Shown here: positions 42,849 through 46,839 of the stretch, in pieces
Numbering within the stretch: the stretch's first letter is position 1
How the letters are laid out: every line of letters starts with the position of its first letter
The notes under the pieces: model-generated
Told to the model about the DNA's origin: nothing
Database searches by the model: none
What the model saw: the letters and a program-made list of their open reading frames with translations, nothing else
Made by a program: the position numbers and the translations under genes
NCBI GenBank assembly: GCA_020833325.1
Contig: JAJHQN010000002.1
Coordinates: forward strand, 1 to 46,839
Origin: Desulfurococcaceae archaeon
GTDB lineage: Archaea; Thermoproteota; Thermoprotei_A; Sulfolobales; Acidilobaceae
Direction: 5' to 3'
DNA: 46,839 bases

Positions 42849-45035
42849 TCAACCTCTAAAGGCTTTTGGTAGCTTAATCCAGAGTAATGCTAGAAACACA
42901 GCTATAGCCGCCCCAGCTACAATATCGCCGGGAAGCCTTAACCATACCAACCTCTCAACATCGGGAAGAGACCATATAGCAGGACCTCCCCACGGAGTTT
43001 CAAGGCCCTTCAAAGCCCAATAACCGGAGGTGGTAACGAGATCAAACTGCTTAAGCATTAGAGGTCCTAGGGATAGGAGGACCTGGAGGTAGAAGCCTAG
43101 AGCGTATACCACAATAGCGTACCTAAGCCTCCTAAGCCAGCTATCGTCAAGAGCTCCAGCTAGGTAGAACGCTACAACCCACATGAGGATGGTTGGCGTC
43201 CCATAAGCCATGGGCATTGATAGGTGAGCGTGAACCATCGTACCCTGGCTTCCGTGGAGGTAGTAGTTTATAACAGGCATGTTGATCATACCAGCTCCAA
43301 AAGCTATAACACCCATAGCGCCTCCTAGTGCAGCTACGAGTATGAACGTCACTATGGTTTTCTGAAGCTCATTAACAAGCCTCCCTCTAAGCCATAATAG
43401 GATAGAATAGGCTATAACAAACCCTAGTGGGATGGCCTCAAGGGTGCTGAATACAGCGCCTACGTAAAGCCAGAATGTTGGTTGTCCACCCCAGTAGTAG
43501 TGGTGTGCTGTCCCGATCATACCCGTGGCTATCTCTAAGACAGCATCCACACCTGCTACCGTTAGACCTAAAACTGGTGGTATTACACCTGTTATTACGA
43601 GCAGTAGGATTAAGATGGTTATTACAATTGGAGGCCAGAATCCCTCCACAAAAGCGTGTATCGTAATCCACCTGAAGTACTCGTCAACAACAAAGTGATC
43701 CCAAGGCCTAACTATGGGTAGAGCTCCGATGAAAGCACCAACTCCTGTGCCCGCAAGTGCTATGGATAGTATTCTTGAGAAAGGTCTAGTCAGCTCAGGT
43801 CCTACCCTAGATGCTTTGTAGAAGAGGTACGCTAGATACCATGCAACAACAGCTATTAGGACCAGGTATAGTGTCCCCTGGCTGATAACAGGTCTACCTT
43901 GCGAGCCCACTATGAACCATAAGGGGTCCGGTATTAGGCCTAGATAGCTAGCCCATATGCCTAGCAGCGTTAGAATAGCTACGAGAGCCCCAGCTCCCAG
44001 GATTAAGATTACCCTTGAAGGGCTTAGGCTCACGCCAAGGTATGGGAGTGCGAAGAGCGAGAAGCTAACCCAGGTGACTACTATCCAGAGTATTGCTAGG
44101 TTGTAGTGTAGAGCTCTTGCAACGTTGAATGGTAGTATGCTGTTTATACCGTGTATGCCGTAGAGTGTTGTCTGCTCTGCGTACTTGTGCATTATGTAAC
44201 CTCCAAGTAGGCCTTGAACTGAGAGTCCTAGAACAGCTAAGGCCATACCAATCAAAGCTATCCTCTGAGCCTTCGTTGGTGGCGGTAGGGTTACTGTAAC
44301 CCTCTCGGCATGCCATTGCTCGACGAGCTTAGCTATTATAAGCCCTGCGATGACCATAGTGGAAGCTAGTAGTATGAAGAAGGTAATCCATGTAGCTTTA
44401 GTCACATCCAACTTGGGCTCAACGATACCAGGCATGTAGGGGAACCCGTTGGTATATCCCGCTAGGGCTGTCATAGCACCCCAGGTGAAGAATGCAACTA
44501 TCTTCCTAACCTCCTCTCTATTAGTGATCAGGTTGGGTCTTAACCCGAGCTCCTCAGATCTAGGTCCTAGAAGCTCGGCGAAGTATTCTACTGCAACATC
44601 AAACCCTCTACCAAAGGCCTCGCTAACAACCACAACACCTCTACTACCATCTAGAACAGTAGAGTACCTTGGGTTAAACTCAACTTTAAGAGCTTCCCTA
44701 ACATCCTTGAGAACCTCTGGGTTACCTAGACTAACAGGCTCCCTAAGCCCAGCCTCCCTAGCTAGGATAGCTAACGTGTAGGCTGTATAATCGATACCGA
44801 AATAGCCACCAAACCCCAGGAAGCTCCCATAGTCAAGGATACCATATCTCTGAGCAAGAACCTTACCCTCCTTAACATCATCCCCTGTAAAGAGAATCCT
44901 ACCATCCCTTGTAACAACCTTCTCGGGAATAGGCGGCATATGAGTGAATGTATAGTAGGCCATAGCGAAATACACTAGGTACACTAGGATAGCAGCTATT
45001 AAAACCAGCGTACCCCAATCCCTCCAGTTGACCAT
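42849..45035 (-). CDS. norZ: Quinol-type nitric oxide reductase (NorB/NorZ family heme-copper oxidase)
   Basis: GFGGYFGIDYTAYTL fused N-terminal domain; HCO core FWPPIVITIL, GTAHHYYWGGQPTFWLYVGAVFSTLEAIP, VHAHLSMPMAYGTP. Confidence 0.9.
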   Translation of the reverse strand: MVNWRDWGTLVLIAAILVYLVYFAMAYYTFTHMPPIPEKVVTRDGRILFTGDDVKEGKVLAQRYGILDYGSFLGFGGYFGIDYTAYTLAILAREAGLREPVSLGNPEVLKDVREALKVEFNPRYSTVLDGSRGVVVVSEAFGRGFDVAVEYFAELLGPRSEELGLRPNLITNREEVRKIVAFFTWGAMTALAGYTNGFPYMPGIVEPKLDVTKATWITFFILLASTMVIAGLIIAKLVEQWHAERVTVTLPPPTKAQRIALIGMALAVLGLSVQGLLGGYIMHKYAEQTTLYGIHGINSILPFNVARALHYNLAILWIVVTWVSFSLFALPYLGVSLSPSRVILILGAGALVAILTLLGIWASYLGLIPDPLWFIVGSQGRPVISQGTLYLVLIAVVAWYLAYLFYKASRVGPELTRPFSRILSIALAGTGVGAFIGALPIVRPWDHFVVDEYFRWITIHAFVEGFWPPIVITILILLLVITGVIPPVLGLTVAGVDAVLEIATGMIGTAHHYYWGGQPTFWLYVGAVFSTLEAIPLGFVIAYSILLWLRGRLVNELQKTIVTFILVAALGGAMGVIAFGAGMINMPVINYYLHGSQGTMVHAHLSMPMAYGTPTILMWVVAFYLAGALDDSWLRRLRYAIVVYALGFYLQVLLSLGPLMLKQFDLVTTSGYWALKGLETPWGGPAIWSLPDVERLVWLRLPGDIVAGAAIAVFLALLWIKLPKAFRG

Positions 45036-45092: not shown

Positions 45093-45108
45093 CCCTAAAA
45101 TTTTAGGG
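45093..45108. promoter_or_regulatory. Palindrome CCCTAAAATTTTAGGG, candidate operator upstream of norZ
   Basis: Perfect 16-bp palindrome 58 bp upstream of norZ start; same half-site as 45825-45840. Confidence 0.65.
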
Positions 45109-45222
45109 GAAGCGTACTTATGTAGGAGAGTGCACTATGCGATCCACGACTCTCTCTAATCTTCGATTGTTGAAGGGGAAAACTATGAAACTTGAATTCA
45201 CTCCTACATTTAGAGAAACATG

Positions 45223-45783
45223 TTATCTTCTAAGAATACCTTCAACTTCATTGAGGAGTTTAATTAGCTGTTCGTGGACCCCCGATCCTATAGTGTTGAT
45301 CTCTATCTTCTCAAACTCCTCCACTAACCTTTCATCTTCATTCACACTCATCAGCTCATCGGCTATCTTGAATAGTACGTTATCCTCCTTGAATATATGC
45401 TCTCTGATTAACCCAACATAGCTTAAAGCACTATCCACAGCATCTCTCCTCGCTTCAGGATCTCTCTCGATGTTCTCTAGATCCTCTTCTAAGGCTTTAA
45501 TAAGCCTTCTGCCGATATCGTGTTCCACAAGCATTACCCCTATAGGCCCTCCTTCTCTTGGAATACCCTTAGATTCTAAGAATGGGAAGAGAGCTCTCTC
45601 CTCTTTCCCGTGATGGCATTTATCTGTGAATTCCTTAAAGAACCTTAATAGTAGTGCGAAAACCTCCATGTTTACAGTTTCCCCTCTATATAGTTTTAAT
45701 GCTGCATCCTCTAGTAAGCTTGCTGCCCTCTCTATCACTCTATGCTCCTCCATTAACGATTCCAGTGCTTTCATAGGCTTCAA
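45223..45783 (-). CDS. Hemerythrin (HHE) domain protein
   Basis: LMEEHRVIERAASLLEDA, TDKCHHGKEERALFPFLE, LVEHDIGRRLI, YVGLIREHIFKEDNVLFKIAD. Confidence 0.92.
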   Translation of the reverse strand: MKPMKALESLMEEHRVIERAASLLEDAALKLYRGETVNMEVFALLLRFFKEFTDKCHHGKEERALFPFLESKGIPREGGPIGVMLVEHDIGRRLIKALEEDLENIERDPEARRDAVDSALSYVGLIREHIFKEDNVLFKIADELMSVNEDERLVEEFEKIEINTIGSGVHEQLIKLLNEVEGILRR

Positions 45784-45824
45784 CCGGTGATATGAAAAGA
45801 GTTACTAGAGGTTAACACTAGTAC

Positions 45825-45840
45825 CCCTAATATATTAGGG
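45825..45840. promoter_or_regulatory. Palindrome CCCTAATATATTAGGG, candidate operator upstream of hemerythrin
   Basis: Perfect 16-bp palindrome 42-51 bp upstream of hemerythrin start, 75-84 bp upstream of the divergent HTH gene. Confidence 0.65.
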
Positions 45841-45914: not shown

Positions 45915-46562
45915 GTGTATTTCATGGCTAGGAAGGTTGTCGACGCATTAATAGCTATTAATAAGTTCGATTGCCCCCTCATGATAGCTTTAACTAGCAT
46001 AGACTTGAACCCTAGATTTTACAACATTAACGTCTCTGAGTCTAAGGTAACACATATACTAGCTATAGAGGGGGGCGATGTTAAACGCCTTACAAGGATA
46101 GCGGGGAGACTGGGTTTAAAGGTTAGGTATATTGATACACGAGGAGGTATAATATGGATTGAAAACTATGCACCGTGTAGCTTTTGTAGAATACTCTTCA
46201 GCCTGGGTGGGGTACCTCTAAGCCTGGATCTTAACGATAAAAAAGTACCACTCTACAGGATATTACTTCCCAGTAGGAGATCGTTTCTAGCTATGAGGGA
46301 GAAACTTGAGGCCTCAGGTTTAGAACCTCAACTACTACGTGCCGGTTACAGGTTAAGGGTGGCTAGGCTAACACCTATGCAGATGAGAGCCCTCGTCATA
46401 GCCTATGAGAATGGATTCTTTGACTTCCCTAAGAGAGTGAATCTTGAGGCTCTATCTAAAATGCTGGGTGTGAAGCCGTCAACGTTAGATGAGATTCTCA
46501 GGAGGGGGTTGAGGAAGCTGGTTGAAGAGTATATCGCTAGAGAGGAGCCCATAAGACTTTGA
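45915..46562 (+). CDS. HTH_10 (bacterio-opsin activator-type) DNA-binding protein
   Basis: C-terminal LTPMQMRALVIAYENGFFDFPKRVNLEALSKMLGVKPSTLDEILRRGLRKLVEEYI; N-terminal part with Cys (FDCPLM, APCSFC). Likely start ATG 45924. Confidence 0.85.
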   Translation: MYFMARKVVDALIAINKFDCPLMIALTSIDLNPRFYNINVSESKVTHILAIEGGDVKRLTRIAGRLGLKVRYIDTRGGIIWIENYAPCSFCRILFSLGGVPLSLDLNDKKVPLYRILLPSRRSFLAMREKLEASGLEPQLLRAGYRLRVARLTPMQMRALVIAYENGFFDFPKRVNLEALSKMLGVKPSTLDEILRRGLRKLVEEYIAREEPIRL

Positions 46563-46664: not shown

Positions 46665-46839
46665 TTGGATGCTGAGAGGCTGGCTTACACTCTAAGCTAT
46701 GCTAGTGAACTTTTCAAGGTGCTCTCCGATCCTACCAGGCTACTCATATTCATGTATTTAGCTAAAAGGGGTGAGGCTTCTGTTAAAGAAATTGCCGAGG
46801 CTCTCGGGAGACCTGAGAATCTCGTATCATATCATATAA
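46665..46839 (+). CDS. ArsR-family HTH regulator (3' truncated by window)
   Basis: TTG start at 46665; LDAERLAYTLSYASELFKVLSDPTRLLIFMYLAKRGEASVKEIAEALGRPENLVSYHI. Confidence 0.85.
   Translation, partial: MDAERLAYTLSYASELFKVLSDPTRLLIFMYLAKRGEASVKEIAEALGRPENLVSYHI

Follow-up and report, generated by a model that had tools for sequence, protein, structure and literature searches.

Paired palindromes at a nitric oxide reductase and hemerythrin locus of a Desulfurococcaceae archaeon are candidate operators of an adjacent HTH_10 regulator

Two palindromes in a 46,839-nucleotide stretch of a Desulfurococcaceae archaeon genome (hereafter the window) quite probably serve as operators for an HTH_10 protein whose gene lies next to them (45915-46562). 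Judged from sequence comparisons, the regulator and its sites would form a small, autoregulated regulon for nitric oxide (NO) or other nitrogen oxides.

Results

Two palindromes at the promoters of NO reductase and hemerythrin genes

The first candidate operator, CCCTAAAATTTTAGGG (45093..45108, unstranded), is a perfect 16-bp palindrome in the promoter of a norZ-like, quinol-type NO reductase (qNOR) gene. A gap of 57 bp separates it from the ATG of this gene (first base 45035 on the complement). The second, CCCTAATATATTAGGG (45825..45840, also unstranded), lies in the divergent promoter of a hemerythrin gene and the HTH_10 gene. Its distance to the hemerythrin gene is 41 bp if that gene starts at the TTG (45783) and 50 bp if it starts at the in-frame ATG (45774); the HTH_10 GTG or ATG follows 74 or 83 bp downstream. 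A re-check of the letters reproduced the palindrome positions of the original prediction exactly and its site-to-start distances to within 1 bp (57 bp; 41/50 bp). That prediction had also placed the sites upstream of NO reductase and hemerythrin genes, and the second one in the divergent promoter of an HTH_10 regulator, both of which are borne out by Pfam (PF22085/PF00115, PF01814 and PF04967).

The qNOR gene (42849..45035, minus strand) encodes 728 amino acids with a NorB_cytochrome_c-like domain (PF22085) and a COX1 domain (PF00115). It matches the Geobacillus qNOR structure (PDB 3ayf) with an E-value of 1.9e-53, and the metal-ligand His residues and the Glu of HxxVEG are conserved. The protein thus has the features of a quinol-dependent NO reductase, namely the NorB cytochrome-c-like domain, the haem-copper core and the NO reductase-type His ligands and Glu. 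The hemerythrin (HHE) gene (45223..45783, minus strand, 186 aa) matches PF01814 with an E-value of 4e-20 and 73 bits against a cut-off of 25.3. Its product shows weak similarity to the YtfE/RIC/DnrN di-iron proteins of Fe-S repair, and it scored 30.7 bits against an NCBIfam equivalog cut-off of 254, and lower for the other models, which by this cut-off places it outside that group. On contig 24 of the same genome, G000, a further hemerythrin gene (bases 3-110; L207; 61% identity to the window copy) is represented by its beginning only, the rest being cut off by the contig edge.

A TATA-like, AT-rich element usually lies a few bases past the operator end, as seen at the qNOR and hemerythrin promoters and at the narG and membrane-protein promoters described below; the TATA elements are weak beside several sites. 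Sites so placed could serve activation from directly upstream, or equally repression in which the bound protein interferes with BRE/TATA binding.

The exact palindrome is rare and confined to the NO cluster

CCCTAA-N4-TTAGGG occurs exactly in two places in the whole 1,451,078-base assembly, both in the NO cluster, while a reversed control pattern has no match there. The motif is therefore not scattered over the genome. In 97 relatives it occurs exactly 15 times, or ~0.10 per Mb, and at that rate the probability of two sites in 46.8 kb is about 1e-5. This agrees with the original view that two palindromes with identical half-sites are hard to dismiss as chance. With two mismatches allowed, six places in the window match, which is no excess over chance, and significance is thus limited to the two exact sites. 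A motif widened to one or two mismatches was rejected, since it gave control-level counts with matches mostly within ORFs.

Half-sites are conserved beside the HTH_10 regulator

Five further genomes in the sample of relatives have an HTH_10 orthologue adjoining qNOR. By the kinship labels of the genome set, which define genus and family placement here, G005 belongs to the genus of the window, G009, G021 and G029 to another and G024 to a third. A CCTAA-N4-TTAGG palindrome is present in the qNOR promoter of all six Acidilobaceae-like genomes with HTH_10 beside qNOR, the G005 site being imperfect. Read in the qNOR direction, the sites of the relatives are GACTAAAATTTTAGGA (G005, one half-site with a mismatch), TCCTAAAAGATTAGGA (G009), TCCTAAAAGGTTAGGA (G021), CCCTAAAATTTTAGGT (G024) and TCCTAATATATTAGGT (G029). 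G005 has the full arrangement of the window, with TCCTAACATTTTAGGA as the second site in the region that separates the hemerythrin gene from HTH_10, and in the other four genomes the palindrome lies between qNOR and the adjoining HTH_10 gene. The motif is thus conserved in orthologous promoters, at both qNOR and hemerythrin/HTH_10 in G005 and at qNOR in G009, G021, G024 and G029. Because these five relatives keep the palindrome where the regulator adjoins qNOR, the palindromes are very probable landing sites of that regulator. The regulator gene of G024 looks broken, split by a tandem duplication of ~50 bp (L107:4850-4960), and the operator is intact.

In anchored pairwise comparison without shifting, half-site identity was 0.9-1.0, whereas the 40-bp flanks were at chance level (0.15-0.47). 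This indicates that the half-sites are a selected sequence and more than DNA that has yet to diverge. AT-rich palindromes are common, and the near-control counts at one or two mismatches would fit a chance origin. Nevertheless, the window alone gives a probability of about 1e-5, the half-sites are kept between flanks at background identity, and the same site recurs across three genera and across two deep clades of qNOR. We therefore reject chance, or passive retention of promoter DNA by common descent, as an extremely improbable explanation.

The central 4-bp spacer varies freely among the relatives, and just the two 5-bp half-sites are kept. A perfect palindrome could also form a hairpin and so act as an RNA structure, either a terminator or an element of the 5' UTR, rather than as a DNA operator. 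With a freely varying spacer this is very improbable, all the more as the palindromes lie upstream of the TATA-like sequence in most promoters and are therefore probably outside the transcript.

Regulators of this type also occur away from qNOR. G004 has an orthologous regulator without qNOR, and there was no site at the regulator promoter. G080 is likewise without qNOR and without a site at the promoter of its regulator, which is the closest one (52% identity); the single exact CCTAA site of that genome falls within an ORF. Sulfolobaceae homologues share no common upstream palindrome and no CCTAA-type motif. In view of these three cases, the operator is established for qNOR-linked orthologues only. 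The G080 regulator (L121:5781-7751) comes from another family and is nearer to that of the window than a same-genus copy is (52% against 43%), which suggests transfer between lineages; a shortened hemerythrin gene adjoins it. In Sulfolobaceae (L216-L237), the HTH_10 homologue is conserved, shares the Cys/His set of the window protein and adjoins DUF488; close by are hemerythrin-like genes in several of the loci, or a conserved multi-pass membrane protein in other loci.

Operator type follows regulator type

In 12 other relatives, a shorter (~160 aa) regulator, here type B, is divergent to qNOR and has a C-x2-C followed by a related HTH. Type-B regulators are homologous to those of the window type (type A), with an hhalign E-value of 6.5e-7 in profile comparison. 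None of the 12 qNOR promoters beside a type-B regulator contains CCTAA-N4-TTAGG. Instead, eight of them carry GTTAACC-N-GGTTAAC, exactly or with one mismatch (G011, G018, G022, G030, G035, G038, G042 and G046; L111-L119, L081), and in seven of these eight genomes it is the sole match genome-wide with up to one mismatch. The type-B loci thus resemble the window in their divergent placement, in the C-x2-C and related HTH, and in having a genomically single palindrome in the shared promoter. They differ in the operator sequence, the shorter protein, an invariant E35-H36 and another Cys arrangement.

In the qNOR tree, which is unrooted and in which G024 forms a long branch, the G000 and G005 enzymes group with the type-B qNORs (100/100), apart from those of G009, G021, G024 and G029. 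Although they fall in the type-B clade, the G000 and G005 qNORs are accompanied by a type-A regulator and operator. Across the promoters compared, operator type is seen to track the regulator and not the qNOR tree. No other evidence argues as strongly that the palindrome is read by the adjacent regulator as this joint change of operator and regulator type.

The start of an ArsR-like regulator gene (46665-46839) lies just downstream of the HTH_10 gene and runs past the window end. Since ArsR-family regulators use AT-rich palindromes, the sites might serve this protein, which begins at ~46665, or else a global redox regulator. We consider either improbable. In the related loci, the gene that constantly accompanies qNOR together with the motif is HTH_10; a different HTH_10-type regulator next to qNOR goes with a different operator type; and a global regulator would be expected to have sites in more than two places genome-wide.

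The regulator carries a candidate sensor site

The HTH_10 gene (45915..46562, plus strand), encoding the putative binder of both operators, is predicted to start at the ATG at 45924 and to yield a protein of 212-215 aa. It matches PF04967 with an E-value of 4e-18 (65.3 bits against a curated cut-off of 23.1) and is the only HTH_10 gene above threshold in the genome. As the only HTH_10 and a constant neighbour, it is the prime candidate binder. The protein has no match to the BAT domain (PF15915) and does not group with Bat regulators by that measure. In a comparison of 28 regulators, Sulfolobaceae homologues included, the only invariant Cys and His residues were C17, H44, C85 and C88 in the N-terminal half. 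In an AlphaFold2 model (mean pLDDT 88.7), the structural elements of the N-terminal part are ordered as two beta-alpha-beta-beta-alpha-beta units in tandem, and an HTH forms the C-terminal part. C17 lies at a beta-alpha junction of unit one and C85/C88 at the equivalent junction of unit two. Searches for PDB relatives of the N-terminal domain gave nothing by sequence and nothing convincing by fold. The C17/H44/C85/C88 set is a candidate metal or Fe-S sensor.

The regulon looks very small

The 14-mer CCTAA-N4-TTAGG occurs zero to five times per genome, and the remaining exact or one-mismatch sites are mostly within ORFs. With so few non-ORF sites per genome, the regulon looks very small, at least as far as motif counts reveal it. 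One further site, TCCTAAAATCTTAGGA, lies 58 bp before narG (TIGR01580, 1583 bits) in G043, of the genus of G009. A membrane-protein gene convergent to the regulator is preceded by an additional site in G009 and by an imperfect one in G021; this multi-pass protein of unknown family has a CCTAA-N4-TTAGG-type promoter site (L104:3628-4368, L105:4094-4852).

G013 was set aside, as its three exact CCCTAA-N4-TTAGGG sites are not near NO genes and it has no close HTH_10 orthologue. It does have a distant HTH_10 gene divergent to narG (L198:6635-6760), a NarO-like layout, and no CCTAA motif was found in that intergenic region.

That the signal to which the regulator would respond is NO is inferred from the target genes. 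The alternative that the regulator is real and senses O2, nitrite/nitrate or general redox stress is less likely, while still deserving consideration. Hemerythrins also bind O2, and the narG of G043 is preceded by a site. NarO has also been described as an oxygen sensor in haloarchaea (PMC11218638). However, the constant targets are qNOR and hemerythrin, and none of the six qNOR genomes (G000, G005, G009, G021, G024, G029) has a strong narG match, which points to NO detoxification and not to full denitrification.

Discussion

The original proposal of an operator shared by a local regulator gains support from the presence of two sites genome-wide, the palindrome in six of six genomes with HTH_10 beside qNOR, and the different palindrome in most qNOR promoters beside type-B regulators. 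We propose that an HTH_10 dimer would bind CCTAA-N4-TTAGG just upstream of the qNOR TATA region and also at the shared hemerythrin/HTH_10 promoter, so that the regulator would control itself too. NO, or a reactive nitrogen or redox signal, may be sensed through a metal or Fe-S site at C17/H44/C85/C88. The signal would then switch qNOR, which reduces NO, and hemerythrin, which may bind NO/O2 or protect Fe-S/di-iron centres. The sign could be activation, as for NarO, or repression until NO damages the sensor, as for NsrR. More tentatively, the HTH_10 protein could be an undescribed type of archaeal nitrosative-stress sensor, in which tandem units and a C17/H44/C85/C88 site reacting with NO switch a minimal regulon; held with the same reserve, and jointly with this NO-sensor reading, is that operator and regulator changed together in evolution, as the type-B regulators indicate.

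Bacterial NsrR, NorR and DNR/NNR are dedicated regulators with palindromic operators before NO reductase and hemerythrin/RIC-type genes, and NsrR represses until NO damages its sensor. The window system would work in the same way, with a dedicated regulator and a palindromic operator. There is no homology, however, as these bacterial proteins belong to the Rrf2, sigma-54-dependent and Crp/Fnr families and the window protein to HTH_10.

The closest parallel is found in haloarchaea. In Haloferax mediterranei, a CGAA-N4-TTCG motif, CGAAYATDKTYG, lies 66-79 bp before the start codons of nirK, nor and nosZ; it is reported at 83 promoters and backed at nor and nosZ by mutational evidence, with no binder identified (PMC10062603). 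NarO is the only regulator described for haloarchaeal denitrification (PMC11218638). It is named as an HTH_10 regulator in H. volcanii (Hattori et al. 2016, as cited in PMC10062603) and reported as an activator. As in the window, the haloarchaeal system has a proposed HTH_10 regulator, a palindrome with an AA-N4-TT core and a 4-bp spacer, a similar site placement (66-79 bp before the start codon versus 57 bp in the window) and a qNOR gene among its targets. HTH_10 genes also lie beside denitrification genes in our set, next to qNOR in six genomes and, as the distant copy, by narG in G013. The two systems differ in half-site (CGAA versus CCTAA), regulon size (83 promoters versus a very small regulon) and phylum. 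The window operator is CCTAA-N4-TTAGG and not CGAA-N4-TTCG, and only the AA-N4-TT core is common to both.

Searching a plasmid collection from the window qNOR revealed a Haloferax larsenii locus where the gene for an HTH_10/BAT protein is divergent to qNOR; CGAACATGTTCG and CGAACATATTCG lie in the intervening region. This protein has the BAT domain PF15915 and, unlike the window regulator, is without the Cys/His set; the outer half-site bases differ too. On the plasmid, pHl5678-2 (L289:6469-12833), CGAA-N4-TTCG sites lie before a multicopper oxidase gene, twice between HTH_10 and qNOR, before a halocyanin gene and between the genes for a radical SAM protein and a DUF2249 protein. NarO was not reached through the plasmid NarG or with the window regulator as query, and it is compared here by description. 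The same layout and AA-N4-TT core argue for a mode of action in the window system similar to that of its haloarchaeal counterpart, with a regulator from the same DNA-binding family. Conversely, the Haloferax larsenii locus suggests that the HTH_10 protein beside qNOR is a candidate binder of the haloarchaeal CGAA-N4-TTCG motif (PMC10062603, PMC11218638).

In the literature searched, which misses most subscription journals, we found no paper naming an NO reductase regulator in Crenarchaeota. The window locus is a small complete unit of one regulator, two candidate operators, two effectors and a candidate sensor site, and qNOR-adjacent members of the HTH_10 family are found in two archaeal phyla. 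The locus thus offers a concrete candidate switch for NO defence in heat-loving archaea.
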